Position numbers and translations under genes: made by a program
Notes under the pieces: generated by a model
Database searches by the model: none
What the model saw: only the letters and a program-made list of their open reading frames with translations
Told to the model about the DNA's origin: nothing
Source: a virus
Reading direction: 5' to 3' (one strand)
Length of the DNA: 64,000 bases
IMG/VR virus record: IMGVR_UViG_3300046170_000478
Span: 30,028 to 94,027 of that record
Shown: positions 3,435 to 63,619 of the stretch, in pieces
How the letters are laid out: the number at the start of each line of letters is the position of its first letter
How positions within the stretch are numbered: position 1 is the first letter of the stretch

Positions 3435-3448
3435 GTGTAAACTTTGAT
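3435..3448 (+). promoter_or_regulatory. GTGTAA motif before portal gene
   Basis: GTGTAA at 3435-3440 ends 8 nt before the portal ATG. TAAACT at 3438-3443 resembles a -10 element, which would place the RNA start at or next to the ATG. It is one of a recurring set of such sites. No matching -35 is obvious. A TAAAGT/ACTTTA inverted repeat lies just upstream (3413-3434). Confidence 0.5.
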
Positions 3449-5404
3449 ATGGCTCGTAGATATACTAAACGCTCTGAATATTGGGAAAAGTTCAATAAGA
3501 AAAAAATTCCACTTGAAAACCTAATTCAACCTCAAGACGAGGGTTTTCAGCCAGAACTAATTGGAGAACCTGTTTTCAGCTCTGAGTCGTCTCGTTTAGA
3601 CTCTCCCACAGCTAGAACGAAAGCTCGTACCAATGCTGTTGCCACTTCAGGCTTAGGTAATAAATTTGAGAATATCAAAAACGGAATCTTACCGTTTAAC
3701 TATGAGAAAGACTCTGCAGACGCTAAAGAAGCAGTAGAACTTTGTCAAAAAGCTTATTTTAATATTTCTTCTTTTAAAGGAACGATTGATCTTTTGTCTG
3801 AATTTGCTGACTCGGAAGTATATCTTGAGGGGGGTACAGAAAAATCTAGAAAATTTATCGACGCTTGGTTTAAAAGAATCAAGATGCATGATTTAAAACA
3901 ACAATACTTCAGAGAGTATTACCGATCAGGCAACGTCTTCTTTTATAGAGTAGATGGGAAAATACCTCTTAAAAATTCGCAAAAAATGCTAGAAGCTTAT
4001 GGGGCTAGTTCTAGGAAAGAAATCCCTATTAGATACCTTTTAATCAACCCTACAGATATCGCAACCAAAGGCTCTGTTTCGTTTAGTGGCTATGAATATT
4101 TTAAAGTATTATCTCCATTTGAAATTTCTCGACTGCAAAAGCCAGAGACAGAGCATGAGCTAGAAATGTTTAAATCCTTGCCAGAAGACGTTCAAGAAGC
4201 GCTTAAATCAGGGAAGAATGCTTATGCAATGACTAGAGTTCAAATTAAACTTGACCCACAATTATTGCATGTTGTTTTTGCTAAAAAGCAAGACTACGAA
4301 CCTTTAGCGATACCCTTGGGTTATTCTGTTCTTGATGATATCAATAGAAAAATAGAATTGAAGAATATCGATCAGGCAATTAGTCGTTCTATTGAGAATG
4401 TAGTTTTATTAGTAACAATGGGCAATGAGCCAGATAAGGGTGGAGTCAATCACCGAAACCTAGCTGCAATGCAGCAAATATTTAAGAATCAGAGCGTTGG
4501 TCGGGTTCTTGTTTCTGACTATACGACAAAAGCAGATTTTATCATTCCAGATATCCGTAAAGTCGTAGGCCCAGAAAAATACGAAGTCTTAAACAGAGAT
4601 ATTGAACAAGGTTTACAGAATATTCTTATAGGGGAATCTAAATATTCAGATACTCAGATCAAAATGAAGGTTTTCTTCCAGAGATTAGAAGAGTCTCGTA
4701 GAGCCTTCCTAAATGACTTTATTAATCCCGAGATCAGAAGAATATGCAAGGCTGCTGGCCTTCGTTCTTGGCCAGAAGCTAAATTTGTTAGGACAGATAC
4801 AATGGACGACAATAACCTGTCAAAGTTGGCCACAAGATTGATGGAGTTGGGAGTCCTTACCCCAGAACAAGGCATGAAGGTTGTCCACACTGGAGTTTTC
4901 CCTCAAGCTTCTGACATGCAAGTAGCTCAAGATAAATTCAAGGAAGAACGTGAAAAAGGGCATTACATGCCTCTTGTGAATACAATTAATTTGTATAATG
5001 AGGAGGGAGAGGGTTCTCCAGAGCCAAACAGACCTCAAGCTATTGCACCGTCTGGAGGAAGACCTATTGGAGTTTCTAATTCTTCTTACTCAAAGAAAAA
5101 CATTGTAGAAGCCACCAAAAGAATCAACGAACTTGAGATTTTAGCTTTCAGAGAATTCGCTTCAAAGTTTGGACTTAAAAGGATGTCAAAGCAAAAGAAA
5201 GAGATGGTAACTCAAGTCTGTGAATCTATTGTTATAGCGAAAGATAGTGGTGATTGGGAGTCTACTTTATCAGAAATAGTTGAAGACTTGGACAAGCTAT
5301 CTTCTCTCGCAGTAAATCAAAAAGTACTAGAATTGGGCTGCCAACATCAGCTAGATGACTTAGCTTCTGCTATTTTATATCATTCAACTCAAATTTGCGT
5401 GTAA
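3449..5404 (+). CDS. Portal protein
   Basis: A 651-residue protein directly after terL, the usual place and size of a portal. It has the mixed alpha/beta wing region with a Y-R-S-G-N-V-F-F-Y-R segment near residue 155 and a long helical stem and crown towards the C-terminus. The portal forms the dodecameric ring at one capsid vertex through which DNA enters and leaves and to which the neck attaches. The last two codons and stop (GTG TAA) double as the promoter-like motif for the next gene. The call rests on context and overall pattern. Confidence 0.85.
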   Translation: MARRYTKRSEYWEKFNKKKIPLENLIQPQDEGFQPELIGEPVFSSESSRLDSPTARTKARTNAVATSGLGNKFENIKNGILPFNYEKDSADAKEAVELCQKAYFNISSFKGTIDLLSEFADSEVYLEGGTEKSRKFIDAWFKRIKMHDLKQQYFREYYRSGNVFFYRVDGKIPLKNSQKMLEAYGASSRKEIPIRYLLINPTDIATKGSVSFSGYEYFKVLSPFEISRLQKPETEHELEMFKSLPEDVQEALKSGKNAYAMTRVQIKLDPQLLHVVFAKKQDYEPLAIPLGYSVLDDINRKIELKNIDQAISRSIENVVLLVTMGNEPDKGGVNHRNLAAMQQIFKNQSVGRVLVSDYTTKADFIIPDIRKVVGPEKYEVLNRDIEQGLQNILIGESKYSDTQIKMKVFFQRLEESRRAFLNDFINPEIRRICKAAGLRSWPEAKFVRTDTMDDNNLSKLATRLMELGVLTPEQGMKVVHTGVFPQASDMQVAQDKFKEEREKGHYMPLVNTINLYNEEGEGSPEPNRPQAIAPSGGRPIGVSNSSYSKKNIVEATKRINELEILAFREFASKFGLKRMSKQKKEMVTQVCESIVIAKDSGDWESTLSEIVEDLDKLSSLAVNQKVLELGCQHQLDDLASAILYHSTQICV

Positions 5405-5412
5405 TAAAAACT
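5399..5412 (+). promoter_or_regulatory. GTGTAA motif embedded in the portal stop
   Basis: GTGTAA at 5399-5404 is the final Val codon plus stop of the portal gene and ends 8 nt before the ATG at 5413. The same spacing as at 3449 and 13083 supports 5413, rather than the in-frame TTG at 5395, as the start of the protease-scaffold gene. Confidence 0.5.
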
Positions 5413-6912
5413 ATGTCATTGGATGATTTTAATATTTGTTTATTTGAAGGTAAAGTAAGGGAGATTAAAAATGAGGAGTTTGAGTTATTCGGGCTTTCTC
5501 AAGGCTCCATCCAAGAAGCTGCAGAATCTTTATTGCCAGAGGACTTTAATCCAGAAGAGAATATCGATGTTTTGCCTGTCGTCTTTAACTTGGCGAAGGT
5601 GAACGAGTTTAATAAAAATGGAGATGGTATTGATGCAGAAACAGCTATAGCGGCAGTAAAACGTTTCATTAATAAGCCAATCAACATTGAGCACAAAAAA
5701 GATAAAATTGTTGGTCACATGATTAACGCCTCTTTCTCTGATAAGGAGTTTGACTTTAAGGATAATGACATTGAATCTTATGCTGATAAAAAAGAACCTT
5801 TTTATATTAATGCCGCAGGATTGATTTATAAATCTGTTTATCCAGAATTAGCAGAGGCTATCACAGAAGCCTCTGAAGAAGAGGAGCCGTCTTATCAAAG
5901 TATCTCTACCAGCTGGGAGCTAGCATTCAAGCAGTTTGAAGTGGCTGTTGGATCTAAATATCTAAACGAATCTAGCATCGCAGAAGGTGCTGAGAAAGAA
6001 GATCTAAAACAATATATTAGAGGATTAGGAGGGAAGGGAGTCGATAAAAATGGTAATCCTGTGAATAGATTAATCGTCGGCCAAACTTATCCCTTGGGGG
6101 CAGCATTAACTAAAAATCCTGCCGCAGCAGTGAAGGGAGTTTATACAACAAAAAATGCTTTAGATAATAAAAAAGTAGAAAAAATTTCCCGAAATAGTAA
6201 TATTAATGTAAACTCAAACAAATTAAAAAGTATTTTTAATATGGATAACGAACAATTTGATCAATTAATCTGTCAGTTGACCAAGAGTGTTGCTTCTGCT
6301 GTGAAGGAAGGCTCTGAGGCTAAAACTGTTAGCGAAAGTATTCGTGATACTCTCGTAGAACACAACGAGTCTTGGACTTCCAAGATGAAAGTTGAGCAGG
6401 AAGCTAAGGCTAAAGCCGAAGCTGAGCTTAGTGAGTTGCAAGACTCTTTTAAGCAAACAAAAGAAGAACTAGACGCTCTTAGGGGTGAGGTTGAAGCAAA
6501 AGCTGCTGTTGACCTTTTCAATGACCGTATGAACTTTATTGATAGCGATTATGACCTTAACGAGAAAGAACTCGCTTTGGTCACTGCTGAAGTAAAAGAT
6601 CTAGGTTCTTCCGAAGAAAATTTTAATTCCTATAAGGAAAAGCTTGAAGTGATTTTTGCTCACAAACTCAAAAAGAATATTGAGGCAAAAGAAGCAGAAA
6701 TTAAAGCTCGTATCGACGAAGCAGTGGCTAGCCGTGAAGAAGGTGACGAACCTGAAGAAGAAGCTGCTGACGAAGAAGAGTCGGAAGAAGAGCTTGAGGT
6801 TGAAGGGGAAGAGGCTGAAGCTTCCATCCCTAATAACAACGCTGAAGCAAGCGAACAAATTTCTTTTGTCGAGAGGCTTAAGAAGAACTTCTCTGTAGAA
6901 GTTGCAAACTAA
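5413..6912 (+). CDS. Prohead protease-scaffold fusion
   Basis: A 499-residue protein from ATG 5413. The N-terminal 220 residues resemble phage prohead proteases: a conserved N-I-E-H-K-K-D-K-I-V-G-H block holds a candidate catalytic His, followed by S-Y-Q-S-I-S-T-S-W-E with candidate Ser residues. The C-terminal half is a highly charged coiled coil ending in an acidic Glu run, as expected for an internal scaffold. It lies between portal and capsid genes. An ATG inside the gene at 6241 is preceded by an A-rich tract and could start a separate scaffold chain, as in other phages with nested scaffolds; this is inference. Confidence 0.75.
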   Translation: MSLDDFNICLFEGKVREIKNEEFELFGLSQGSIQEAAESLLPEDFNPEENIDVLPVVFNLAKVNEFNKNGDGIDAETAIAAVKRFINKPINIEHKKDKIVGHMINASFSDKEFDFKDNDIESYADKKEPFYINAAGLIYKSVYPELAEAITEASEEEEPSYQSISTSWELAFKQFEVAVGSKYLNESSIAEGAEKEDLKQYIRGLGGKGVDKNGNPVNRLIVGQTYPLGAALTKNPAAAVKGVYTTKNALDNKKVEKISRNSNINVNSNKLKSIFNMDNEQFDQLICQLTKSVASAVKEGSEAKTVSESIRDTLVEHNESWTSKMKVEQEAKAKAEAELSELQDSFKQTKEELDALRGEVEAKAAVDLFNDRMNFIDSDYDLNEKELALVTAEVKDLGSSEENFNSYKEKLEVIFAHKLKKNIEAKEAEIKARIDEAVASREEGDEPEEEAADEEESEEELEVEGEEAEASIPNNNAEASEQISFVERLKKNFSVEVAN

Positions 6913-6932
6913 AAAATTAACAATTATATATT

Positions 6933-7562
6933 ATGGCTAACGAAATTACACGTTTATTGCCGTTTCGTCAATATGACGAGAATGATGTTATCAACTTCTA
7001 TTCTCTTGATGCCGAAACGGGTGAGGCGGGTTCTGTTGTTAAGGTAAGCGCTGCTAACCTTTCCGACGATCCTGTCAGTTATGTTGAGCGAGGCGATGCC
7101 GACTCGTATCAATCCACTATGGGTAAGGGTCTTTCCCTTTACCCCGAAGTACCTTACAAGGTGACCAAAATGGTCACTACTGGAGGTAATGCTAAAGCTC
7201 TCGGAATTCTTTTGCGCGATGTTCGCTCTAAAGATGAAAACGGAGAGAACCTTCTATACTACCCACAGAAGAAAGAAGAACTTCAGTGTGTTGTATCTGG
7301 CGAAGCGGTTCCTATCGCTACAAAGGGTATTTTCACAATCAACGCAAATGGTCTCACAAATGGAGTCGCACCTACTGTTAATCAGTTCGCTATACCTTCT
7401 TTGAATGGAACTATTTCTGGGATCACTAGTACTGCAGGTAACCACGGTCAACATCACACTCATTCAATCGGAACCTTCATTGGAACTGGACTTCGTGAGT
7501 CACAAGGTGGAACGACTGATGCTTTCGCAGGTGCTTACGCAATTCTTAAACTTAACTGCTAA
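6933..7562 (+). CDS. Small head protein, possible decoration protein
   Basis: A 209-residue protein with no recognised catalytic motif. It is beta-rich with many Gly, Thr and Val, and has a His cluster (G-Q-H-H-T-H) near residue 173. It sits between the scaffold and the major capsid gene, where decoration or head-stabilising proteins are common. Like the capsid gene, it uses more C-ending codons than its neighbours, suggesting high expression. The function is inferred from position. Confidence 0.6.
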   Translation: MANEITRLLPFRQYDENDVINFYSLDAETGEAGSVVKVSAANLSDDPVSYVERGDADSYQSTMGKGLSLYPEVPYKVTKMVTTGGNAKALGILLRDVRSKDENGENLLYYPQKKEELQCVVSGEAVPIATKGIFTINANGLTNGVAPTVNQFAIPSLNGTISGITSTAGNHGQHHTHSIGTFIGTGLRESQGGTTDAFAGAYAILKLNC

Positions 7563-7573
7563 TATTTACGAAA

Positions 7574-8713
7574 ATGAAAATCACAATTAAAAGAACTGAA
7601 GATCAGTTAGCTCTTATTAGAGCAATGGGATCTAATAATCGTGAAGAGGCTTATGAGGCTCAGGCGGCAGTTGCAGAACTGCTCGGACCTGTTGTATCTG
7701 AAGTTATTAACAACGCTCCTACTATTGGAAATCTCTATACGACGATTTCTTATGGAGAAGATGATAATCCTTCTCTTCCTTTGGACCTTTTCCACGACAT
7801 CACTGACGAGGACTACATTGAAGTGTATTCTCAGCAGGTCGCTGGTGGGCTTCCATACAGTCAAGTCTTCCCCGCTCACAATGAGTTGAAGTTTAGCACT
7901 TACACCTTGGACAGTGCTCTTGCGTTTGATCGCAAGTACGTCCGTAAGGCTCGCCTCGATGTTGTAAGCAAGACTTTCACTCGGATGGCTCAAGAAGTTC
8001 TGCTCAAGCAAACGACTACCGCTTTCAACGTTCTCGCTACCGCTTTGGTAAAAGGAACTGGAACTGGAACAACCGCTGGAGGAAGCATCATTGGTTCTTC
8101 TGCGGCTGACCGTTTTGTCCTTGCAGACTTTAATAACCTGATTACCAAGAGCAAGCGTATCAATAGCTCCTTCAGTGGAGGAACTCCTGTTGGTGGCGTT
8201 AAATCTGGTATTTCTGATCTCCTTGTTTCTCCAGAAATGGTCGAGGAGCTTCGGGCAATGGCTTATAACCCAATCAACACCGCTGAAGCCCCTTACGGAT
8301 CTGCAGTTAAGGACAGTCTTCCTGCTCCTGATGCTCTTCGTCAAGAACTCTTCAGTGCTGCTGGTCTTCCTTCTTTCTACGGAATTAATGTTATGGAGAT
8401 CAACGAGATGGGCATCGGACAACGCTTCAATAAGCTCTTTGGTGCTGTTGTTGCTTCCGAAGGTGCTACTGTTATCGGTGGTGGAGGATCTGGAACTTGG
8501 GTAACTGGTGATGATGAAATTCTCATCGGTATCGACCGTTCTAAGGATGCTCTTATCCGTCCTACCGTTGTTGGTGAGGGATCACCATCTGAATTCCAAG
8601 TCCTTGTTGACGATCAGTTCTCTGTTCGTCAGAACAAGATTGGATACTACGGTAAAGTTGAAGAGGGTCGTATTTGCATCGACAATACAGCTCTTATCGG
8701 CTTGGTGGTATAA
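7574..8713 (+). CDS. Major capsid protein
   Basis: A 379-residue protein in the canonical place after portal, protease-scaffold and decoration genes, and followed by a strong terminator. Its size, an N-terminal helix and an alternating alpha/beta pattern with a Gly-rich loop near residue 305 fit an HK97-fold capsid subunit. No N-terminal scaffold domain is visible, consistent with the separate scaffold gene. Codons ending in C are frequent, typical of a very highly expressed phage gene. A family search would confirm the fold. Confidence 0.85.
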   Translation: MKITIKRTEDQLALIRAMGSNNREEAYEAQAAVAELLGPVVSEVINNAPTIGNLYTTISYGEDDNPSLPLDLFHDITDEDYIEVYSQQVAGGLPYSQVFPAHNELKFSTYTLDSALAFDRKYVRKARLDVVSKTFTRMAQEVLLKQTTTAFNVLATALVKGTGTGTTAGGSIIGSSAADRFVLADFNNLITKSKRINSSFSGGTPVGGVKSGISDLLVSPEMVEELRAMAYNPINTAEAPYGSAVKDSLPAPDALRQELFSAAGLPSFYGINVMEINEMGIGQRFNKLFGAVVASEGATVIGGGGSGTWVTGDDEILIGIDRSKDALIRPTVVGEGSPSEFQVLVDDQFSVRQNKIGYYGKVEEGRICIDNTALIGLVV

Positions 8714-8737
8714 TCAACCTGATGTTACTTATAAAGA

Positions 8738-8770
8738 GAGTCGCTCCATAAGGGGCGGCTCTTTTTTTTT
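8738..8770 (+). terminator. Rho-independent terminator after capsid gene
   Basis: A 10-bp stem (8738-8747 with 8752-8761, two G-T wobbles) with an ATAA loop is followed by nine T residues. It ends the head-gene transcript after the major capsid gene. Confidence 0.92.
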
Positions 8771-8802
8771 GATTTTTATCTAAATTTTAACTATTATGTA
8801 TT

Positions 8803-9225: not shown

Positions 9226-9228
9226 TTA

Positions 9229-9717: not shown

Positions 9718-9718
9718 T

Positions 9719-11692: not shown

Positions 11693-11717
11693 GTGTAAGA
11701 AGGTGTAAACCTTTACA
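11693..11717 (+). promoter_or_regulatory. Tandem GTGTAA motifs and dyad before tail-tube gene
   Basis: Two GTGTAA copies start exactly 10 bp apart (11693-11698, 11703-11708). The second forms a perfect dyad TGTAAA-CC-TTTACA at 11704-11717. The ATG at 11736 lies 27 nt after the second motif, longer than the usual 8-10 nt. One-helical-turn spacing fits a protein bound to one DNA face. Confidence 0.5.
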
Positions 11718-13019: not shown

Positions 13020-13038
13020 TATAACTATTATATCTAGA

Positions 13039-13068
13039 AAAAGCCTCGCAGGAATGCGGGGCTTTTTT
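13039..13068 (+). terminator. Terminator after tail tube-like gene 1
   Basis: The stem GCCTCGC (13043-13049) pairs with GCGGGGC (13056-13062), one wobble, loop AGGAAT, extended by A-T pairs and followed by six T (13063-13068). A GTGTAA motif begins at the very next base. Confidence 0.92.
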
Positions 13069-13082
13069 GTGTAAACTACTAT
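13069..13082 (+). promoter_or_regulatory. GTGTAA motif abutting a terminator
   Basis: GTGTAA at 13069-13074 follows the terminator T-run directly and ends 8 nt before ATG 13083. Because the terminator stops upstream RNA, something here must start a new transcript. This makes it one of the best arguments that the motif is a promoter. TAAACT (13072-13077) would serve as a -10. Confidence 0.6.
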
Positions 13083-13928: not shown

Positions 13929-14326
13929 TTACTAGCGGAAACCTACCAAATTATAAAAATTGTATCTACAATGTAGATGTAACGATTGATTCTCCCATCA
14001 GTGGTTTTGAGTTTTCCATTATGGAGACAGGGATAGACGGAGGTTTTAAAACAGCTAACTTAATGACGTTTTCTGGAGCGGAAGGTTATATATTTGACCA
14101 AAGTGGCAACTTTTTTGGAGGGTATAGAAGTGGCGTCCCCTTTGACCTTGAAATACATCATGATTTTTTAAACTCCACATTTTCTTATTACAAAGATAAT
14201 ATTTTAATAGCTAATGGATTAGATGTGACGGGAGATAGTATTTTGAATGGAAGGCCAAATCTAGTTATGTTCACTAAACATGGGGAATCGGTACTTTCTT
14301 TAGAGGCCACAGGTTGTATAAGTTGA
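13925..14326 (+). CDS. Small tail protein, lectin-like pattern
   Basis: A 133-residue protein, coupled by ATGA to the preceding gene. It is made of short strands with the segment F-D-L-E-I-H-H-D followed by S-Y-Y-K-D-N-I-L-I-A-N-G-L, a pattern seen in concanavalin/LamG-like beta sandwiches. It may decorate the tail or bind a glycan; this is a weak structural guess and the family is not recognised. Confidence 0.45.
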   Translation: MITSGNLPNYKNCIYNVDVTIDSPISGFEFSIMETGIDGGFKTANLMTFSGAEGYIFDQSGNFFGGYRSGVPFDLEIHHDFLNSTFSYYKDNILIANGLDVTGDSILNGRPNLVMFTKHGESVLSLEATGCIS

Positions 14327-14334
14327 TTTTTTTC

Positions 14335-14358
14335 TGTATATTTATATAATAATATACA
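14335..14358 (+). promoter_or_regulatory. TGTATATT/AATATACA dyad at a start codon
   Basis: TGTATATT (14335-14342) and AATATACA (14351-14358) form a perfect 8-bp inverted repeat with an 8-nt A/T spacer. The last A is the A of the ATG at 14358. It resembles the TGTAA...TTACA dyads elsewhere and lies in the gap before the tail-assembly genes. Confidence 0.45.
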
Positions 14359-16023: not shown

Positions 16024-16036
16024 GTGTAAATTACAC
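16024..16036 (+). promoter_or_regulatory. Perfect GTGTAA-A-TTACAC dyad before tape measure gene
   Basis: GTGTAAATTACAC is a perfect 13-bp palindrome, the cleanest copy of the recurring motif. The motif ends 10 nt before the ATG at 16040. TAAATT at 16027-16032 could serve as a -10. Confidence 0.6.
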
Positions 16037-32984: not shown

Positions 32985-32991
32985 TGAATTT

Positions 32992-33022
32992 GTGTAATTT
33001 ATAGAAGATAATCTATTGTATC
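32992..33022 (+). promoter_or_regulatory. GTGTAA motif in divergent gap
   Basis: GTGTAA (32992-32997) lies in the 38-bp gap between the divergent SSB-like and appendage genes, 25 nt before ATG 33023, and points to the plus-strand gene. A weak GATA/TATC dyad follows. No copy of the motif faces the minus-strand gene. Confidence 0.4.
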
Positions 33023-33859
33023 ATGGCTTTTAATAAAATTCAACCTGAACAGATCCAATTGCACACTTTCTTTAGTGACTCTGGAGATCTAAATATAACT
33101 CAAACAAATACAGGAGTTAAAATCAATGTTTCTAGGAACTTGACGGGTGATTTTTCTTTTACGGGAAATTTGACTAATAACGGTAAATCAATTGCGAGTT
33201 TTGCTCAGAAAACTAATAACATCTATAATACAAATAGTGGAAACTTTTTGTTTCTAGGTAGCAATACTGAAATCGGAGATGGACTAAATGCATATAATAA
33301 TTTCGCAATTTCATGCAATGACAGTAGCATTAGTGGAATTAACAATGCTGTTTTCCGCGCAGATTCTGTAGAATTCAGGACAGGTAGTCAAGAAAATGTT
33401 TGCTTGGCTGGGCATGGTATAACGTTTACTGACACTGCAACGGGCAGTGTCGTCTTAAAAGATAACCTAACCACAAACTCAATTACCGTAAGTCAGCAAG
33501 ACGCCTTATATGCGAAATTTAGTTCTGGTCATTTCTTCCAAGGTGGAGACACTTATTTCCAACAGAGTTTAAGTGTAGACGGAACTGGCATATTTAGTGG
33601 TCAATTAGATGTTCTGAGCGATGCGGTGTTAAGCGGTAGCACCATTGTCAATGAACAAATGTTGAACGGCCCTCACACTGTAACGGGAATCGTAAGATAT
33701 CAGACGGGATTCGCCCTCCCTAAATGGTTGGGTAATAGCATGGGAGCTTCTGAAGGATCTCCTGTAACGGAAGCAACAGGAGCACTCGCCATCTCAGGAT
33801 CTACTTTATGCGTATTTATTGGAGGGAGTTGGGCTGGAATCGGTTTAACCTCCATTTAA
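33023..33859 (+). CDS. Tail appendage or fibre-like protein
   Basis: A 278-residue protein made of short beta strands with frequent Gly, Asn, Ser and Thr (F-S-F-T-G-N-L-T-N-N-G-K; S-V-D-G-T-G-I-F-S-G-Q-L), a pattern of beta-helix or fibre proteins. The C-terminal 60 residues form a small distinct domain with a Trp and Gly-rich end, a possible receptor-binding tip. It stands alone between two minus-strand operons with its own motif-bearing gap. Its 3' end overlaps the convergent gene by 4 bases. Confidence 0.55.
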   Translation: MAFNKIQPEQIQLHTFFSDSGDLNITQTNTGVKINVSRNLTGDFSFTGNLTNNGKSIASFAQKTNNIYNTNSGNFLFLGSNTEIGDGLNAYNNFAISCNDSSISGINNAVFRADSVEFRTGSQENVCLAGHGITFTDTATGSVVLKDNLTTNSITVSQQDALYAKFSSGHFFQGGDTYFQQSLSVDGTGIFSGQLDVLSDAVLSGSTIVNEQMLNGPHTVTGIVRYQTGFALPKWLGNSMGASEGSPVTEATGALAISGSTLCVFIGGSWAGIGLTSI

Positions 33860-34523: not shown

Positions 34524-34539
34524 ATTTTCTATATAACAC
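34524..34539 (-). promoter_or_regulatory. GTGTTA variant motif before hsp20
   Basis: Reading the minus strand, GTGTTA (34539-34534) ends 10 nt before the ATG at 34523, the spacing seen for GTGTAA at several plus-strand genes. TTATAT within it resembles a -10. Confidence 0.45.
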
Positions 34540-34555: not shown

Positions 34556-35641
34556 CTAATCCCCATAGATACGAGATAAAATAGCGTCTATGCTTTTGGC
34601 ATATGTAAAGTTGTCGCGCAATTTTGTCCCATCTGTGTTTTTTTGTCCCACTTTCTCTAAGGCTTCATCAAATCCCTTTTGAATGTCGTCTGCATTCAAT
34701 TTATAATATTCCCCCTGATTAAAAGACATCCCTTCTCTAAAAAAGAAATTATCATAACAAGGTTGTTTACCGATTGGATCTACGAGAATGCTATTATTTT
34801 CTGTTGCCCAGTCTTTATGGGAAGAACAGTTGCTCACTATGGACCATTTGCCAAGAGCGGTCGCGTTGAAAGCAGGAAGATTCCAACCCTCTCCATTTGA
34901 AAGTCCAGAAAGATCTATATCAATTGAATTCATGAAATCATTCACTTCTGAATTTGTCTTCAAGTGGGGTAAGAAATTAATGTTTGACCAACTCTGTCCA
35001 CTTAGAGAATTATTGATTGCCTGATTCATCTGCTCTCCATTTAAAAATGGGTTCGCAACAAGACAAGATAATTGGTATTTTGGGTTATTCCCGAATTTCT
35101 GAGTCCATAATTGGATGATGGCCTGTGTGTTTTTTCTTCTTTCAAATTTGCCAACTAAACCGAAATGGATTGTATCTTTTAGGTATTCTTTTCCTGTTTC
35201 TTCAAAATCTTGATCAAACCCAAGGGGGACATGGCTGACATTGTCGCAACCTTTATCTTTAAACGCTTGGGCTGCTTCTGACGATGAGAAAAATACATGG
35301 TTTTGAAGATTGACTATATTGACTTCCTCTTCCGTAGGGGAATCAAGTTCGTAAAATGTATAAAGAAATTGGTTGGGTAGAACTTTTTCGGAACCATTAA
35401 TGTGCCAAACCTTTAGGGATGGCGTATTTTTGTCTAATTTTTTCAGTCTAGTGGCTGAAATATTACTGACCCATTGTTGGAAATCTTTGGGGATTTTGTC
35501 GTAAGCAGAGAAATCACCTTTATCTCCTATTGGGAAAAAAGAGATTTCAAGGTCTTTTTCTTTGAGTTCTCTTAGAAAATTTACTGTTACATTCCCTAAA
35601 CTGAGTGAGTTTATTGGTCCTTCAAAATTTAATCTTTTCAT
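34556..35641 (-). CDS. GT4-family glycosyltransferase
   Basis: A 361-residue GT-B type enzyme. The N-terminal lobe carries the acceptor side. The C-terminal lobe begins near residue 165 with F-G-L-V-G-K-F-E-R-R-K-N, a GT4 hallmark. The nucleotide-sugar region near 275 (S-N-G-E-G-W-N-L-P-A-F-N) is the usual E-x7-E area in reduced form. It probably transfers a sugar to a surface or virion glycan. It overlaps the sigma-factor gene upstream by 20 bases, so both are made from one transcript. Confidence 0.75.
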   Translation of the reverse strand: MKRLNFEGPINSLSLGNVTVNFLRELKEKDLEISFFPIGDKGDFSAYDKIPKDFQQWVSNISATRLKKLDKNTPSLKVWHINGSEKVLPNQFLYTFYELDSPTEEEVNIVNLQNHVFFSSSEAAQAFKDKGCDNVSHVPLGFDQDFEETGKEYLKDTIHFGLVGKFERRKNTQAIIQLWTQKFGNNPKYQLSCLVANPFLNGEQMNQAINNSLSGQSWSNINFLPHLKTNSEVNDFMNSIDIDLSGLSNGEGWNLPAFNATALGKWSIVSNCSSHKDWATENNSILVDPIGKQPCYDNFFFREGMSFNQGEYYKLNADDIQKGFDEALEKVGQKNTDGTKLRDNFTYAKSIDAILSRIYGD

Positions 35642-36218
35642 TATCTATTCTTTGGCTTAATTCTAATATCGCTTTGTCATGTATATTTATACATCCCTGT
35701 GCAGAAAGATTTAATATACTAGCAATTTCCTTCCAAGGTTTTAACTTGCCTCTCTTTCCACAAAAATACCTCTCGTGGAAGATTATTTTCAAGCGACCAT
35801 CTTGGTGTTTTTCTATAAGATTAATAATTCTAGAGAAAGAATCACTCATATCACAAGACTGATCGGGAGTGTATCCTTTATCTTTTTGACAAAATTGTAT
35901 TTCATCAAAATTTGAAGTGAACCGATTGTTTTTGTTTTTCGTTTTCTGGGTCAGGCACATATATTTGGTCTTATTTGCCAAATGAGTTGAAAACTTAGCC
36001 CTAGTTTCATCATACTCTAGGGCTGCTTTGTAAATTACGTAGTCTTTTTCCCCCATTATATCGTATACTTGATTTTTGGTAAGACAATTTGACCCAAATT
36101 TTTTAAGCATATCAACGTAAATGCCTGAATGCCTAGAAATTAGCTCATTCAGGGCTACTTCATTATTATCCTCTCTAATTAGTGCGGTTAAATCAGAATC
36201 TGTAAGATTATTGATCAC
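35622..36218 (-). CDS. Phage sigma-70-like factor
   Basis: A 198-residue protein starting with GTG. Region 2 is seen at about 20-85: L-N-E-L-I-S-R-H, then Y-D-E-T-R-A-K-F-S-T-H-L-A-N-K-T-K-Y, which parallels the sigma-70 2.1-2.4 core (Y-D-x-x-R-x-K-F-S-T). A C-terminal helix-turn-helix (W-K-E-I-A-S-I-L-N-L-S-A-Q-G-C-I-N) near 160-185 is region 4. The linker is short, as in ECF or phage sigma factors. It is a strong candidate for recognising the GTGTAA-type promoters in this window. It is transcribed away from the nrd genes. Confidence 0.75.
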   Translation of the reverse strand: MINNLTDSDLTALIREDNNEVALNELISRHSGIYVDMLKKFGSNCLTKNQVYDIMGEKDYVIYKAALEYDETRAKFSTHLANKTKYMCLTQKTKNKNNRFTSNFDEIQFCQKDKGYTPDQSCDMSDSFSRIINLIEKHQDGRLKIIFHERYFCGKRGKLKPWKEIASILNLSAQGCINIHDKAILELSQRIDNEKIKF

Positions 36219-36279
36219 TTTTTTCTTACTATAAGTAAAAATTAAAAAAAATCAAGTAAAATCTTATAAAATTTTATTC

Positions 36280-36425: not shown

Positions 36426-36460
36426 TTGACTCAGTTCTGACAAAGGCATATTCTGTGTAA
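36426..36460 (+). promoter_or_regulatory. Promoter plus GTGTAA dyad at nrdB start
   Basis: TTGACT (36426-36431), 17 bp, TATTCT (36449-36454), then GTGTAA (36455-36460), which opens a TGTAAAATTACA palindrome (36456-36467). GTGTAA ends 9 nt before ATG 36470. Either hexamer set predicts an RNA start within about 10 nt of the ATG. Confidence 0.6.
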
Positions 36461-39105: not shown

Positions 39106-39111
39106 GTGTAG
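39106..39111 (+). promoter_or_regulatory. GTGTAG motif before a small ORF
   Basis: GTGTAG follows an eight-T tract after nrdA and ends 12 nt before ATG 39124. An ATAGT/ACTAT repeat overlaps it. The GGAAT...ATTCC pair around the nrdA stop plus the T-run might be a weak terminator. Confidence 0.4.
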
Positions 39112-39123: not shown

Positions 39124-39240
39124 ATGACTATTGCAGAACCTACAATTGAGAAGGAAGACATTGAAAATGTTGAATTAGAATATGATGAGACTTTAGCTTA
39201 CATCTTGGGCAAAATAAGCGAACATATTGCCGAAGATTAG
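39124..39240 (+). CDS. Small acidic protein
   Basis: A 38-residue ORF, M-T-I-A-E-P-T-I-E-K-E-D to A-E-D, strongly acidic with one amphipathic helix. It has its own GTGTAG motif upstream and hairpins downstream, which argues that it is really expressed. No homology is recognised. It could be a small inhibitor or regulator; this is speculation. Confidence 0.5.
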   Translation: MTIAEPTIEKEDIENVELEYDETLAYILGKISEHIAED

Positions 39241-56894: not shown

Positions 56895-56908
56895 GTGTAA
56901 GACACTTA
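56892..56908 (+). promoter_or_regulatory. TAAGTGT-AAG-ACACTTA dyad
   Basis: A perfect 7-bp inverted repeat containing GTGTAA (56895-56900), which ends 10 nt before ATG 56911. The first TAA is the stop codon of the preceding gene. Confidence 0.55.
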
Positions 56909-58406: not shown

Positions 58407-58500
58407 AGGTATATATACCCCCCAGACAGATGAAGTTTGGCATTCTGATGCTAGATTTAGGAAGCTTGAGAGGCAGCTTTATTTTCCCAGCGTGAAATAG
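58231..58500 (+). CDS. Rz1-like outer-membrane lipoprotein
   Basis: An 89-residue protein. A basic N-terminus is followed by a hydrophobic segment and the lipobox L-I-S-C with C28 as the acylated residue, so the mature part is an outer-membrane lipoprotein. The mature protein has Q-P-S-T-L-S-L-Q and T-P-Q-T-D-E-V-W-H-S-D-A-R-F, a pattern repeatedly found next to lysis genes. It starts within the preceding frame, the hallmark of nested o-spanins. It probably disrupts the outer membrane at lysis. Confidence 0.7.
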   Translation: MKEKEKKSSKRLKILGLMTVMLTGLISCGNNSSVKTNPLNIYQPSTLSLQNGIPVQTSKGIYTPQTDEVWHSDARFRKLERQLYFPSVK

Positions 58501-58509
58501 AGCTTTTTA

Positions 58510-58532
58510 AGTGTAGATCTTGTATATACACT
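58510..58532 (+). promoter_or_regulatory. AGTGTA...TACACT dyad
   Basis: AGTGTA (58510-58515) and TACACT (58527-58532) form a perfect inverted repeat around an 11-nt spacer. GTGTAG at 58511-58516 lies 30 nt before ATG 58547, longer than the common spacing. Confidence 0.45.
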
Positions 58533-58546
58533 AACTTTAAATTTAT

Positions 58547-58792
58547 ATGCCTGATCCAAATCACACAAAAGGAGACATACACTCTAATTTCTCAGTTACT
58601 TCTGGAACATGGACTGGTTATAGGGTTGAAGTAACAGGTCTTTACAATGATTATTCTAGTAGTGATTTAGACGCACATGTCTGTAGGGAATTCAACAAAA
58701 AAATAAGAGATTTGGGCCAACCAGAATCTCTTTATATAGCTCCTTATGATGCTGGCTTGAGGTATACGGGTGATGGTTCCACTTTTTCTTAA
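58547..58792 (+). CDS. Small unknown protein
   Basis: An 81-residue protein with its own dyad-bearing upstream gap. It has alternating strands (N-F-S-V-T-S-G-T-W-T-G-Y-R-V-E-V) and an acidic loop, with P-Y-D-A-G near the C-terminus. There is no signal peptide. The family is not recognised. Confidence 0.55.
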   Translation: MPDPNHTKGDIHSNFSVTSGTWTGYRVEVTGLYNDYSSSDLDAHVCREFNKKIRDLGQPESLYIAPYDAGLRYTGDGSTFS

Positions 58793-58846
58793 TTTCTTTT
58801 AAGAAATAGTTGATATTACATTCTATAAATCATATAATAATCACAT

Positions 58847-59044
58847 ATGAACTCTATTGAATTTAGTGATGAAGAGCTTAATGCTCTTATGCAATTAATT
58901 GATATCGCAATTAAATCTCAAGGCTTGAATGTAGCTCAAGCTGGTGTCATCTTAGCGGACAAAGTTCGCGAAGCGGCTTCTCCTCCTCCTGAAGTTGATT
59001 CTGAACCCAAATTTGCTGAAGAAGCAGAGGTGGTATCAGATTAG
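58847..59044 (+). CDS. Small acidic phage protein
   Basis: A 65-residue acidic protein: an amphipathic helical half (F-S-D-E-E-L-N-A-L-M-Q-L-I-D) and a Pro/Glu-rich tail. It ends before the strong bidirectional terminator. The gap before it holds TTGATATTACATT but not the full motif. Confidence 0.5.
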   Translation: MNSIEFSDEELNALMQLIDIAIKSQGLNVAQAGVILADKVREAASPPPEVDSEPKFAEEAEVVSD

Positions 59045-59074
59045 TCTAATTCTACTTAGACATATCAGTTCATA

Positions 59075-59107
59075 AAGACACGATAGCCCCTTGGGTTATC
59101 GTGTCTT
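59075..59107. terminator. Bidirectional 15-bp hairpin between convergent genes
   Basis: Bases 59075-59089 pair with 59093-59107 (one G-T wobble) around the loop CTT. It lies between two convergent genes, so it should stop transcription from both sides even though the flanking T-runs are short. Confidence 0.85.
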
Positions 59108-59123
59108 CATTTATTTAGGTCGT

Positions 59124-59954
59124 CTAATAAGTTTTCCGCTTACCTAGAAGTAAAATTATAGGGATGGCACTAAGAAGAATAAAATGCGCCTCTGGGATTG
59201 CAGTACCCGTTGTACCACTGAACTTTAAAATAGATGGGTTTTGTGAGAATGATACACCATTGAAGTAAATATCATCGCCTTGTACCGCGAATTGATCTAA
59301 CGAACTTAAAGTGAGTTGGGCATTTGGAGATAAGTTAACGATAGACCTTTCGGTTTGACTATTGATTGAGTCTCCAGCCCCTCGTAGAGTTAAACTGCTG
59401 GTTGAATCAACATTTATTTGTAATCCTATTGCGGAAAACATAGCGTTCATACTCGACCCTTCAGTTATATTTAAAGTAGAATAAACATTATCATCATCAT
59501 CTACTCCAGTAAAACCATTATTGTTTTGAAAAGTAAAATTCGTAGATTTTAATGTTACTGAAAACTCGTCACCGATTTCAATATTTGAATAAGAGGGGCT
59601 ATCTTCAAGTATTAGGGCATCCGTTATAGTCAATATGTTAGTAATAGGCGAATCTCTGTTTAATTCCAGAGAATCTGATTCTGAAAAATCCCAGTTTGGG
59701 GCATCATAAAAATCATAAATATCTTCTTCTTCTGCGTCCCAAACTATAACCATATCTAATTTCTTATCTTCGCTTTCGGCTATATCTACAACCTCCTCGT
59801 TACTAATCTGGATGGGTCTTTGAATATTGACTACAGGGTTGATATTAGGGTTTTCTGTAGGGTTTATTAGGAATACATTTCCTTCTACAGAGGCAATAAT
59901 AGCAGATTTAGCTACAGAAATAATTGAGAGTAAAGTTATGAGTGTGCGCTTCAT
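59124..59954 (-). CDS. Secreted PEP-CTERM protein (cargo)
   Basis: A 276-residue protein. The N-terminus (M-K-R-T-L-I-T-L-L-S-I-I-S-V-A-K-S-A) is a signal peptide. The C-terminus has I-P-E-A, a hydrophobic helix and G-K-R-K, the tripartite PEP-CTERM signal cut by exosortase. The body is beta-rich, Asp/Asn/Ser-rich and may form a beta-helix. No phage structural motif is visible. In bacteria such proteins are exported and anchored or secreted with exopolysaccharide, so this looks like host-type cargo that alters the cell surface. ATGA overlap with the upstream gene. Confidence 0.75.
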   Translation of the reverse strand: MKRTLITLLSIISVAKSAIIASVEGNVFLINPTENPNINPVVNIQRPIQISNEEVVDIAESEDKKLDMVIVWDAEEEDIYDFYDAPNWDFSESDSLELNRDSPITNILTITDALILEDSPSYSNIEIGDEFSVTLKSTNFTFQNNNGFTGVDDDDNVYSTLNITEGSSMNAMFSAIGLQINVDSTSSLTLRGAGDSINSQTERSIVNLSPNAQLTLSSLDQFAVQGDDIYFNGVSFSQNPSILKFSGTTGTAIPEAHFILLSAIPIILLLGKRKTY

Positions 59955-60142
59955 TTCTTCTTTTTTAGTATAAGGTTTTTCAGTTTAGTGAGATTCCCCG
60001 TCAACTTCCCTAACAACCTCCCCAGCTTACTATTTTCAGGCACAATGTAGGAAAGCGTCCCCAATAAACCCAAGATAGAAATAATAAACTCAGGCATTGA
60101 CCCCATATAAGGAGCGAGTATTTTTTCAAATAAATCTTCCAT
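59951..60142 (-). CDS. Small membrane protein
   Basis: A 63-residue protein with one hydrophobic segment (residues about 16-34, F-I-I-S-I-L-G-L-L-G-T-L-S-Y-I-V) and a Lys-rich C-terminal tail. It lies between the acidic-repeat protein and the PEP-CTERM protein and overlaps the latter by ATGA. It could be a holin-like or anchoring protein, but the lysis holin is more likely the gene at 61409. Confidence 0.55.
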   Translation of the reverse strand: MEDLFEKILAPYMGSMPEFIISILGLLGTLSYIVPENSKLGRLLGKLTGNLTKLKNLILKKKK

Positions 60143-60147
60143 AATAA

Positions 60148-61362
60148 CTATTTTCTTATCATGTTGGGGAGTTTAATCACATCAGGGACTTGAGTGACTT
60201 GATCATCTTCTTCTAGTTCAAATGTTTCTTCTGAATTCTCAATATCTGTTTTTTCTTTTTCGCCCTCTTCAGACTGTTCTTCAGGCTCCTCTTTTTCTTC
60301 AGGCTCACCCTCTTCAGATTCTTCCTCCACTTCTTCTCCCTCTTCTTCTTCTTCGGATTCCTCCTCTTCGGATTCCTCCTCTTCGGATTCCTCCTCTTCA
60401 GCCTCTTCGGATTCCTCCTCTTCGGATTCCTCTTCTTCAGCCTCTTCGGATTCCTCTTCGGATTCCTCTTCGGATTCTTCTGTTTCCTCTCCTTCAGCCT
60501 CTTCCTCTGCTCCTTCTTCAGTTTCTACAGAATCCTCTTCTTTGACAGCTTCTCCTTCGCCTTCTTCATTATTTTCTTCTGTAGGCTCACCCTCATTTCC
60601 TTCGGCCTCGTCAGACGCTTCGCCTTCCCCCTCTTCACCACTAGATCCTTCACCTTCTCCTTCTTCGCCTCCTTCGTAACCTTCTTCAGATGTGCCGACA
60701 ACATCTCCATAACCTTTTTCAGCGTATTCTACAATTGACTCGGTAACGCCACCAAAAGGCTGAAACCCAATTGTCGTTTCAGTAAAATCATTTAAATTAG
60801 AAAATATCTGGTGTTCTTGCTCTGCCACAACAGCTATTTCAGTACCTTTTTCTTTTGTTGTTTTGGCTTGGAAGTAAGCTCCACTACCTATGGACATAGT
60901 TCCAGCGACCCCAATTGTTCCTACTTTTTGAACTGTCTCTTGGACAAAAGCGCTTAAACCAGTAGCGGCACTTGCTGTTTGGGTTGTCGCTCCAGCAGCG
61001 GCTGCAGCAGCAGTACCTTTTGCAGCTTTTTCTAAAATATCTTTATTTTTTTCAGCTATCTCAGACAACTTATCCATAGTAGAAGTCTCAGGGGTTTCAG
61101 CCTTCACTTCCTGACCTTTATTTTTTTCAACTTTAACTTCTTCTCCCTCAATCTCTTCTTCTAAGGACTCTTCTTCCACCTCATTGCCACATTCTTCACA
61201 GACACAAGGGCTTTGTTCCAAATGTTTAATTCTCTGTAATAAAGCCCATGCTGTTTCTCTTGCATGGCGGTCTAAATCAGAGATGATGTCGCTATCATCT
61301 GGATTGCAGTATTTTTTTGCGAAAGCTTCTGCTTCCGCAAGATCTTTGCGATGTTCCCCCAT
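60148..61362 (-). CDS. Acidic Glu/Ser repeat protein with zinc knuckle
   Basis: A 404-residue protein. The N-terminal part has C-V-C-E-E-C-G near 53-59, a possible zinc knuckle. A region of Ala/Gly/Thr with weak hydrophobic patches follows (about 110-165). Then comes a very long Glu/Ser/Gly tract (about 230-385) with E-E-S-E repeats and near-total lack of hydrophobics, an intrinsically disordered acidic tail. It heads the minus-strand cargo cassette and has GTGTAT 10 nt before its ATG. The function is unknown; DNA mimicry or surface exposure are guesses. Confidence 0.65.
   Translation of the reverse strand: MGEHRKDLAEAEAFAKKYCNPDDSDIISDLDRHARETAWALLQRIKHLEQSPCVCEECGNEVEEESLEEEIEGEEVKVEKNKGQEVKAETPETSTMDKLSEIAEKNKDILEKAAKGTAAAAAAGATTQTASAATGLSAFVQETVQKVGTIGVAGTMSIGSGAYFQAKTTKEKGTEIAVVAEQEHQIFSNLNDFTETTIGFQPFGGVTESIVEYAEKGYGDVVGTSEEGYEGGEEGEGEGSSGEEGEGEASDEAEGNEGEPTEENNEEGEGEAVKEEDSVETEEGAEEEAEGEETEESEEESEEESEEAEEEESEEEESEEAEEEESEEEESEEEESEEEEEGEEVEEESEEGEPEEKEEPEEQSEEGEKEKTDIENSEETFELEEDDQVTQVPDVIKLPNMIRK
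60352..60480. repeat. Tandem 15-bp repeats in the acidic tail gene
   Basis: TTCGGATTCCTCCTC occurs three times head to tail (60352-60396) and continues in altered copies to about 60480. They encode the E-E-S-E tract on the minus strand. The repeat is prone to slippage, so copy number may vary between strains. Confidence 0.8.
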
Positions 61363-61372
61363 TTAATAATTC

Positions 61373-61378
61373 ATACAC
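61373..61378 (-). promoter_or_regulatory. GTGTAT motif before the acidic repeat gene
   Basis: On the minus strand GTGTAT ends 10 nt before the ATG at 61362. It lies beside the plus-strand GTGTAA at 61393 in the same divergent gap, so both directions carry the motif. Confidence 0.5.
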
Positions 61379-61392
61379 ATATTTCTTTTTTT

Positions 61393-61409
61393 GTGTAAGT
61401 TAATTTACA
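61393..61409 (+). promoter_or_regulatory. GTGTAA dyad before holin gene
   Basis: GTGTAA (61393-61398) pairs with TTTACA across a short spacer, ending on the A of ATG 61409. The spacing shows that the holin begins at 61409, not at the in-frame TTG at 61391. Confidence 0.55.
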
Positions 61410-61723
61410 TGGACCTAAAAAATCTAATGAGAGAATTTATGGATGGCGGATGGGTTATTCCAATAATTGGGGCTGCGGGTATGATAGCTAGGATGCTAAA
61501 CTCCAAAGTAGAATACTGTTGGAAGGAATTCGCAAAAAACGTTAGTTCTGCAGCAATACTCTCTATGATTTTATGGTTTATTTTGCATGATGCTCCCATA
61601 AGTGATTTAGTTAAAGCTGTTTCTTATGGTGTTGTTGGTGTAATTAGTCCTGAAATCATTAATGGTCTTATTGCATTAGCAAAAAAATATGCGAAAAACC
61701 CTGAAAAAATCATTAAAAAATAA
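61409..61723 (+). CDS. Holin candidate
   Basis: A 104-residue membrane protein. Two or three hydrophobic helices are visible (V-I-P-I-I-G-A-A-G-M-I-A near 15-27; A-A-I-L-S-M-I-L-W-F-I-L near 48-59; G-V-V-G-V-I-S near 74) separated by charged loops and followed by a Lys-rich tail. The endolysin gene follows at once. It probably forms holes in the inner membrane and times lysis. Confidence 0.7.
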   Translation: MDLKNLMREFMDGGWVIPIIGAAGMIARMLNSKVEYCWKEFAKNVSSAAILSMILWFILHDAPISDLVKAVSYGVVGVISPEIINGLIALAKKYAKNPEKIIKK

Positions 61724-61728
61724 TTAAA

Positions 61729-62349
61729 ATGGACTTTAAATCAAAAAAAGAAGTTGTTAAAACTGTTCAAAAATTACTTGAGATTTCTGCTGACGGAGCA
61801 GATGGTCCAGTTACTTGGAATGCTATATTGGCGAAGTTATCTACAGACGAAACAGAAGTTTCTGGGAGTAGTGTTTCAGAAAAAATGGTTAACCTAGCTC
61901 GTGGAGAAATTGGGGTATCAGAAGTTGACGGAAGTAACTGTGGACCAAGGGTGGATGTATACAAAGCTGCAACTTGGTTAGATCCTGATAAGGGTTGGCC
62001 TTGGTGTGCAGCCTTTATCTGTTGGTTAGTTAGAGAAGCCATAGAAGGAGAGGATATTTCCTTCAAAAGACCTCAAACAGCAGGAGCTTGGGACTTTGAA
62101 AATTGGGCTAGGAAACAAGTTTCAAAAGGAGTCGAGTTGCGGAAGCCTACAAATGAAGATATTAAAGCTGGAGATATAGTTGTTTTCACTTTTTCTCATA
62201 TTGGGTTAGCAGTTAAAGATATTGATTCCAGTGGTTATGTTACCACGATTGAGGGAAATACTAATGGAGCTGGCAGCAGAGAAGGAGGCTCTGTTTTGGA
62301 GAAGAAACGTCATGTTTCTTGTATTCGGAGTAGAATTAGGATTATCTAA
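61729..62349 (+). CDS. CHAP-domain endolysin
   Basis: A 206-residue protein. Residues 1-40 look like a short peptidoglycan-binding repeat (V-K-T-V-Q-K-L-L, D-G-P-V-T-W-N). The CHAP catalytic domain has Cys in P-W-C-A-A-F-I-C-W near 91-99, His in S-H-I-G-L-A-V near 156 and E-G-N-T-N near 175. It cuts the peptide part of peptidoglycan at lysis. It starts 6 nt after the holin stop. Confidence 0.88.
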   Translation: MDFKSKKEVVKTVQKLLEISADGADGPVTWNAILAKLSTDETEVSGSSVSEKMVNLARGEIGVSEVDGSNCGPRVDVYKAATWLDPDKGWPWCAAFICWLVREAIEGEDISFKRPQTAGAWDFENWARKQVSKGVELRKPTNEDIKAGDIVVFTFSHIGLAVKDIDSSGYVTTIEGNTNGAGSREGGSVLEKKRHVSCIRSRIRII

Positions 62350-62366
62350 TAGAATTCCATTATCTC

Positions 62367-62385
62367 CTGTAATATAATGTTACAG
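62367..62385 (+). promoter_or_regulatory. CTGTAA-TATAATG-TTACAG dyad abutting ATG
   Basis: CTGTAA (62367-62372) and TTACAG (62380-62385) form a perfect inverted repeat; the ATG follows at once at 62386. A TATAAT lies between the arms. It is a close relative of the TGTAA...TTACA dyads. Confidence 0.5.
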
Positions 62386-62679
62386 ATGCAGAAAACTAAA
62401 ATCAAAGTCAGCAGGTATGACATCTTTGATTATGTCATAGGCATTTCTAATTTTGATCCTATAGAGAAGTGTATTGATCCAATACGTTATGAAGTCTTTG
62501 AGACTTTTATCTTTGATAATAAAAAAAAAGAAGATCTCCCTCAGGGTAAGGTTTTTTGCAAATTTGAAAAAGAGTTAATAAAACTAAAGACATTTTCCAG
62601 AAAAATGGATAATTCTGAGATTGATCGTATTAGTATAGAATTAGAGGAAATTGCTCCGATATTTGTCGATCTATTATAA
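62386..62679 (+). CDS. Small unknown protein
   Basis: A 97-residue protein from ATG 62386; an upstream ATG at 62377 lies inside the dyad and is less likely. It has basic N-terminal strands (I-K-V-S-R-Y-D-I-F-D-Y-V-I-G) and an acidic C-terminal helix. It ends in TAATG overlap with the GT9 gene. There is no known family. Confidence 0.5.
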   Translation: MQKTKIKVSRYDIFDYVIGISNFDPIEKCIDPIRYEVFETFIFDNKKKEDLPQGKVFCKFEKELIKLKTFSRKMDNSEIDRISIELEEIAPIFVDLL

Positions 62680-63572
62680 TGAAGGGGGATATATTTATAG
62701 ATATCGATTACCATGGAGTGGGAGATAGAATTCAAATGTCTTCAGTGCCAGAGGCTATTTATAGATGGTATGGTAAAAAAGTCGTTGACATAAAGAAATC
62801 TTGGGTCTTTGATCATAATCCATACGTTATTAGAAGAGAAGATCACAGCGACGACCTTCAAATAAAATTTGATAACGAAGGATTTCATTGCCTTTACTGC
62901 GATGAGGTGGATTGGATAAATCCTGAAATAAAGGGGGTAACAAATCTACATAGAACACTTGATAAAAATGTTCAAATACTTATCCATAGCTTGTGTCCCC
63001 CTTACGCTGATCATCAGATAGCTAGCAGTAGGAGTACGTGGATTTTTCAAAGACTATGTATCAACGCTAATCAAAACCCTAAATTAAATATTCCTAGAGG
63101 ATCAAGGTTATACAAATATGAAGATCCTAGTGAGGTTAATAAAGATCAAATATCAATTCATGTCGGGCCTAGTAAAAGCACTGGCCAATTTATCCCCGAT
63201 CATGTTTTAGATATGATAAAGAAAAGATATTCCAATTACAAGATAATTCAAATTGGGAGTTCTAGCGACCACTATTCTCCATTTATTGATAAAAGAGGTC
63301 TTGATATTTGGGATTCTGTTGAAATTATCGCTAAAAGCTCAATTTTTATTGGCATAAACAGTGGACCGATGAATATTGCGAATTGTTATCCGCATATAAA
63401 TAAGAAAGTTATTTTTAATACTGATTTAGATTGGATGGAGAAAGAGATTCAAAGATTTGAGCCTTTGAATGCAAGAGTCAATGCATCTTTCGGATGGGTC
63501 GATTTCGGATGGCAGTACTTTACTACTAAAGAGCATGATATGGGCAGGATGTACTCTTATAACAGAATATAA
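62679..63572 (+). CDS. GT9-like glycosyltransferase
   Basis: A 297-residue protein. The C-terminal Rossmann lobe shows the GT9 donor site: I-S-I-H-V-G-P-S-K-S-T near 155, I-I-Q-I-G-S near 186 and I-G-I-N-S-G-P-M-N-I-A near 225. Strands near the N-terminus (D-I-F-I-D-I-D-Y-H-G-V-G-D) form the first lobe with G-V-G-D in place of the usual G-x-G-D. It probably transfers a heptose or similar sugar. HldD elsewhere in the window could supply the donor. Confidence 0.65.
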   Translation: MKGDIFIDIDYHGVGDRIQMSSVPEAIYRWYGKKVVDIKKSWVFDHNPYVIRREDHSDDLQIKFDNEGFHCLYCDEVDWINPEIKGVTNLHRTLDKNVQILIHSLCPPYADHQIASSRSTWIFQRLCINANQNPKLNIPRGSRLYKYEDPSEVNKDQISIHVGPSKSTGQFIPDHVLDMIKKRYSNYKIIQIGSSSDHYSPFIDKRGLDIWDSVEIIAKSSIFIGINSGPMNIANCYPHINKKVIFNTDLDWMEKEIQRFEPLNARVNASFGWVDFGWQYFTTKEHDMGRMYSYNRI

Positions 63573-63594
63573 ATTTTCCGTTATATTCCTAACG

Positions 63595-63619
63595 GTGTAA
63601 TATATTTATATAACAACAC
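63595..63619 (+). promoter_or_regulatory. GTGTAA motif before the small membrane gene
   Basis: GTGTAA (63595-63600) lies 25 nt before ATG 63626. GTGT pairs with ACAC at 63616-63619, and GTTATAT...ATATAAC flanks the motif. Confidence 0.4.

Follow-up and report, generated by a model that had tools for sequence, protein, structure and literature searches.

GTGTA[A/T] is a conserved, positioned and strand-specific DNA element that precedes virion and lysis genes in the phage sequences examined here, and it is very likely a promoter core. Since its distances to start codons, the terminators adjoining it, its absence from coupled starts, its restriction mostly to virion and lysis genes, its conservation and the fact that the phages encode sigma factors all fit such a reading, we interpret it as marking a promoter class. 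The likely form of this class (probability about 0.76) is a -35-less phage promoter of the late type, at which host RNA polymerase carrying a phage sigma factor initiates leaderless or near-leaderless mRNAs. No RNA data are available for this interpretation. A preliminary description, made from sequence alone, had proposed a phage promoter class for leaderless mRNAs, and this proposal is now supported as the best-fitting reading, with transcription starts still unmeasured.

The window analyzed in this study is a 64,000-nucleotide stretch that covers positions 30028-94027 of a viral contig of 94,027 bp (G000), and genes were called on the whole contig with a gene caller that favours ATG. Tailed-phage markers include the genes for terminase, tape measure, endolysin, DNA polymerase III alpha, ribonucleotide reductase (RNR) and PhoH. 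The terminase gave 237 relatives from viral contigs; the top 80 of them, 82-100% identical, were fetched. Its best isolate-phage matches reach only about 22-28% identity, the portal protein gave a 22% match to isolate phages, and neither the major-capsid candidate nor the two sigma factor candidates matched any isolate phage. By these proteins, the contig belongs to a large, uncultivated group of marine phages with no isolate close by sequence.

The signal of GTGTAA lies in its position only. Over the whole window it occurs 29 times against 22 expected, which is barely above chance, and this plain count was rejected as evidence because it is not significant. In the region from -25 to -8, GTGTAA was found at 8 of 57 non-coupled starts (those with a gap of at least 5 nt), compared with 0.16 expected from dinucleotide shuffles, and at none of the 44 coupled starts. 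The earlier claim that the motif sits at intergenic gaps and not at coupled starts therefore held, and a frequency at gaps no higher than in shuffled upstream sequences, which would have refuted it, was not observed. Motif discovery over the contig and its relatives, with distance statistics, had been suggested as a further check; it placed GTGTAA first, at a sharply bounded distance from the start. Among all 4096 six-mers at the non-coupled starts of the 94-kb contig, GTGTAA ranked first (8 seen, 0.27 expected; P = 3.6e-10 before correction). It was also the top six-mer in six of eight large contigs, each analyzed separately, and in the two remaining, distant contigs the overlapping word AGTGTA came top with GTGTAA and GTGTAT close behind. 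All 65 motif genes start with ATG, which is weak evidence given the preference of the gene caller. Shine-Dalgarno words are at background (8 of 104 starts versus 4.9 by shuffling), in agreement with the general lack of such sequences noted before.

The motif occurs at all the positions listed in the preliminary description, and four virion genes on the plus strand show how it is conserved. These are the portal gene 3449 (site 3435..3440; GTGTAA in 38 of 38 distinct relatives), the protease/scaffold-like gene 5413 (5399..5404; GTGTA[A/T] in 35 of 35 distinct relatives), the tail gene 11736, which has tandem copies at 11693..11698 and, 10 bp after the first, at 11703..11708 (at least one GTGTA[A/T] in 25 of 25 relatives), and the tail gene 13083 (13069..13074; kept in 12 of 12 relatives). 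Taken together, these genes have 110 distinct upstream regions in related marine contigs, with proteins as little as 44% identical, and GTGTA[A/T] is missing from none of them; the internal operon starts 6933, 7574 and 9229 have it in none of 86 distinct upstream regions. When orthologous starts are compared, GTGTA persists in 86% of cases versus 31% for other five-mers. At the 5413 site, the portal reading frame itself ends in GTGTAA, read as GTG TAA. In a distant clade the portal stop comes earlier and GTGTAT lies outside the coding sequence at an unchanged distance before the next ATG; it is thus the DNA word that is conserved here and not a Val-stop peptide. Even the most divergent locus (L159) keeps GTGTAT, with GTGTA ending 9 nt from the portal ATG.

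The remaining plus-strand sites are conserved to different extents. The motif before the tape-measure gene 16040 (16024..16029, within the dyad GTGTAAATTACAC) and that before the RNR beta gene 36470 (36455..36460) are present at nearly equal distance in all eight large contigs, and the site before the tail-fibre-like gene 33023 (32992..32997) keeps its distance of 25 nt in all eight. The sites before gene 56911, whose function is unknown (56895..56900; distance equal in G001, G005 and G010), and before the holin-like and endolysin genes 61409 and 61729 (61393..61398; GTGTA[A/G] in G001, G002 and G005) are kept in part of the eight; the Pfam holin match is below cut-off. GTGTAA also lies 25 nt before gene 63626 (63595..63600; kept in G001, G002 and G005) and 13-14 nt upstream of PhoH in G000, G005 and G008, counted from GTGTA. 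GTGTAG variants precede a 38-aa ORF at 39124 (39106..39111; GTGTAT at the matching place in G002, G008 and G011) and gene 58547 (58511..58516; the orthologue has GTGTAA in G002 and GTGTAG in G005, at a shorter distance). Most motif genes are virion and lysis genes, with RNR and PhoH as carriers outside the virion set, and the label 'late' is a loose one because these two are not virion genes.

On the minus strand, the site reported at 61378 does contain the motif (GTGTAT, 61373..61378), and its gene 61362 has no orthologue in the contigs compared. The gene at 60148-61362 encodes a 404-aa, very acidic, Glu/Ser-rich repetitive protein that lacks an orthologue in the other seven large contigs. 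GTGTTA at 34539 failed as a site: it is not conserved, and some relatives have a TATAAT-like box at the start instead. The earlier count of nine sites with a gap of 8-10 nt is right if this GTGTTA is included.

Two further elements near the first sites were observed. A palindrome, AAAAGTTNNAAAGTNACTTTTATAACTTT, lies at 3405-3434 between the terminase stop and the portal GTGTAA; it is near-invariant among relatives whose portal proteins are at least 62% identical and has decayed in L159, and it might be an operator, a packaging site or a part of the portal promoter. At the last codons of the portal gene (5360-5398, AILYHSTQI), conservation appears to extend to synonymous positions, and this stretch may hold another DNA signal upstream of the 5413 promoter.

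Alignments of relatives define the conserved core as GTGTA[A/T], with the bases after GTGTA varying freely. The suggestion that TAAANT serves as a -10 box thus failed, as its positions beyond the core are among those that vary. Position-by-position information revealed little at -35, and no fixed -35 element was found. Dyads, previously described as part of the class, do occur above chance (2.9 versus 0.7 group-equivalents, P ~0.003), mainly at the tape-measure gene 16040 and RNR 36470. Most sites have none, so the dyad was rejected as a defining feature except at these two genes. Neither of the two related dyads in the preliminary description held up: the one at 14335 shares bases with the -10 box of a sigma70-type promoter that is itself conserved, and the one at 62367 is not conserved.

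Intrinsic terminators abut the motif, which implies that transcription must restart there. The T-tract of a terminator ends 30 nt or less from the ATG at 11 of 65 motif starts versus 3 of 621 other starts; the 65 starts represent about 21 orthologue groups, and the 11 cases amount to two or three independent ones, comprising the holin gene of G001, G002 and G005 and, in each of the eight contigs, the place before 13083. In the window, the T-tract of the terminator at 13038..13068 (plus strand) directly abuts the GTGTAA at 13069, an arrangement kept in all eight large contigs, and the earlier inference of a restart at this place held. An alternative explanation is that an endonuclease cuts at GTGTAA and creates leaderless 5' ends from longer transcripts. 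Fixed distances would be expected in that case, and the overlap of the 5413 site with the portal stop codon would fit. However, the abutting terminators would stop the very transcript that is to be cut, which makes a cut site very unlikely.

The distance to the start codon provides the link between the motif and leaderless geometry. In the eight contigs, GTGTAA ends 8-13 nt from the start in 49 of 75 cases and never 2-7 nt from it, while TATAAT ends 5-9 nt from the start in 36 of the 50 cases within 30 nt and never 10-16 nt from it. The two distributions coincide once shifted by three letters (GTG), and the TA of GTG-TA-A therefore sits at the TA of TATAAT. The criterion for a leaderless -10 box, an end about 5-9 nt from the start codon, is met by the TATAAT histogram and, with this offset, by GTGTAA. 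RNA thus probably begins at the ATG or within a few bases of it, an inference from sequence in the absence of RNA data. Such spacing also resembles that of a Shine-Dalgarno element, and one could argue that, with Shine-Dalgarno sequences missing, GTGTAA takes over their role in the mRNA and recruits ribosomes from a position 8-12 nt ahead of the AUG. We regard this as very improbable. Coupled starts (0 of 44) and internal operon starts (0 of 86) need ribosomes as well but lack the motif, some conserved sites are 25-45 nt away from the start, and the motif also occurs directly after terminators. Moreover, UUACAC, the complement of GTGTAA, is not known to occur in the usual bacterial 16S 3' tail.

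Besides the GTGTAA class, these phages possess sigma70-type promoters of the host type. TATAAT boxes with a TTG-type box 15-19 nt upstream number 8 in the contig versus 0.7 by shuffling, and 13 and 14 such promoters were found in G001 and G002, respectively. Plus-strand examples that are placed for leaderless transcripts include those of gene 14358 (14323..14357, TTGATT-N16-TATAAT-N7-ATG; kept in most relatives), gene 58847 (58810..58846; kept in relatives) and gene 8803 (8769..8802), which lies behind a terminator and has a GTGTAA added in the spacer in the distant clade. In one distant relative (L155), this added word reads GTATAA, a natural single-base variant. At 36426..36454, TTGACT-N17-TATTCT is followed directly by the GTGTAA of RNR. 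The TTGA/TATAAT class thus appears to be placed for leaderless transcripts as well, again without RNA data, and leaderlessness is not peculiar to the GTGTAA class.

Many motif sites lie 17-50 nt from the start and need either leaders or a second explanation. Many of these are accompanied by a TATAAT-like box close to the ATG or are situated inside a host-type promoter (33023, 63626 and the distant-clade 8803), which suggests dual control; at the 63626 site, a TATAAT-like box near the ATG accompanies GTGTAA in G001, G002 and G005. All eight contigs also share the short divergent intergenic stretch at 32985-33022, in which the distances of GTGTAA and a GATAAT box do not change. The position of the motif inside host-type spacers at 33023 and the distant-clade 8803, together with the dyads at the tape-measure and RNR genes, could instead indicate an operator, where a phage regulator binds GTGTAA over promoters whose own elements are too weak to be seen and so switches late genes. 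This alternative is unlikely for three reasons. Most conserved sites have neither a dyad nor another recognizable promoter; terminator and ATG are just 14-20 bases apart before 13083 and before the holin gene, and GTGTAA is the sole conserved thing there; and the sharp lower bound of its distance to the ATG is the behaviour of a promoter box.

Two candidate readers of the motif are encoded by the contig. Sigma2, encoded just left of the window (G000:28895-29572), is certainly a sigma factor, as it passes the curated models TIGR02937 (52.4 bits versus a cut-off of 42.9) and Pfam Sigma70_r2 (31.6 over 24). It is present in 9 of 10 contigs, the tenth (G011) probably being cut off before that place, and its structure prediction was poor (pLDDT 64). 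Sigma1, a candidate phage sigma factor of 198 aa (35622..36218, minus strand), matches phrog_36 (2.8e-7) and gave a full-length match to TIGR02937 below cut-off and no Pfam match. In a Foldseek search with its predicted model, the top hits were all sigma factors (best E ~2e-3), and the gene is kept in all eight large contigs. It has its own sigma70-type leaderless promoter (36219..36255, minus strand; TTGATT-N16-TATAGT-N9-GTG), with similar boxes in most relatives. Because this host-type promoter would make it an early-made reader, we slightly prefer sigma1 over sigma2; nothing ties either protein to the motif. A host sigma factor might therefore be thought to read GTGTAA, given that no direct evidence links the phage sigmas to it. 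This is unlikely, as almost every large contig examined retains the two phage sigmas and the phages already use a separate host-type TTGA/TATAAT class. No match to a T7-type (single-subunit) RNA polymerase was detected in the phage contigs, a weak test because the search had no positive control. A gene cluster behind GTGTAA at G000:27810-29572 (L006 7810-9572) encodes PhoH, the ECF-like sigma2 and a small protein whose start resembles a zinc finger; this arrangement could possibly constitute a positive feedback loop.

If the promoter reading is correct, GTGTA[A/T] would be the single recognition element of a late-type promoter class, to which a phage-coded sigma is inferred to direct host RNA polymerase. 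The TA of GTG-TA-A would take the place of the TA of TATAAT, so that the first RNA base would be the A of ATG or lie only a few bases ahead of it. The portal, protease/scaffold, tail, tape-measure and holin mRNAs would then have little or no leader, and their translation would do without Shine-Dalgarno sequences, while sites 20-45 nt from the ATG would yield short leaders and, often with a second host-type box adjoining, may allow two-phase expression. A bolder reading, towards which we lean only slightly, is that leaderless mRNAs of two classes carry a large part of the lytic programme in this widespread marine clade. Early genes would be expressed from host-type TATAAT promoters and late genes from a GTGTA[A/T] promoter not described before, with a phage sigma outside the gp55 family, both classes being placed so that RNA starts at AUG.

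The host of these phages can only be hinted at. One MAG contig carries a Flavobacteriaceae label, which we do not trust because promoters of the TATAAT type do not fit Bacteroidota. A secreted-looking protein (59124-59954, minus strand), for which no family match was found, has a C-terminus, PEAHFILLSAIPIILLLGKRKTY, that resembles a PEP-CTERM sorting signal, and the second-best match of sigma2 is an ECF subfamily (Rhodopirellula/Verrucomicrobium). Together, these two features hint at a PVC-group host.

In comparison with known systems, the GTGTAA class works like the late promoters of T4 (TATAAATA; gp55/gp33/gp45), which have a single box about one turn before the start, no -35 and an AT-rich downstream region (PMC2988020). 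It likewise consists of one short box without a -35, is AT-rich downstream and serves mainly virion genes, and if RNA starts at the ATG, TGTAA at the shortest spacing aligns with TATAA at -13..-9. Unlike T4, the core is GTGTA[A/T] and not the TATAAATA consensus, and it is placed for leaderless RNA. Homology of either sigma to gp55 was not found (hhalign probability 0.1-0.2 on the percent scale, with sensitivity limited by a single-sequence gp55 and shallow alignments); gp55 falls in phrog_234, but sigma1 and sigma2 do not. A beta-type sliding clamp (PF00712) was not found in six phage contigs, where a host clamp remains possible, and T4-type gp45 and gp33 were outside the search. With a different word and no gp55 homology found, membership of the T4 type is not shown. 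The late promoters of AR9 and phiKZ (AACA-N6-TA/G; TATG) are read by phage multisubunit RNA polymerases, and AR9 leaders measure 26-491 nt (PMC5312081). The phages studied here resemble them in having a phage-specific late class and genes with both early and late promoters, and differ in that no single-subunit phage RNA polymerase was found, although this test was weak and multisubunit enzymes were outside the search. In bacterial leaderless transcripts, such as those of mycobacteria, the -10 is positioned such that the start codon forms the 5' end of the RNA (PMC3898074, PMC4633059). The TATAAT class of these phages fits this geometry, whereas GTGTAA, a phage element, does not match the TANNNT pattern. 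A GTGTAA phage promoter was not encountered in the open-access literature searched, and subscription papers were outside that search. The motif offers a key for reading gene expression in a large marine phage group, including its operons, its early versus late genes and a testable sigma-promoter pair. If our reading is true, the short list of known phage late-promoter words would gain an entry, and nature would offer an example of virion proteins, which have to be produced in bulk, being synthesized from leaderless mRNAs.
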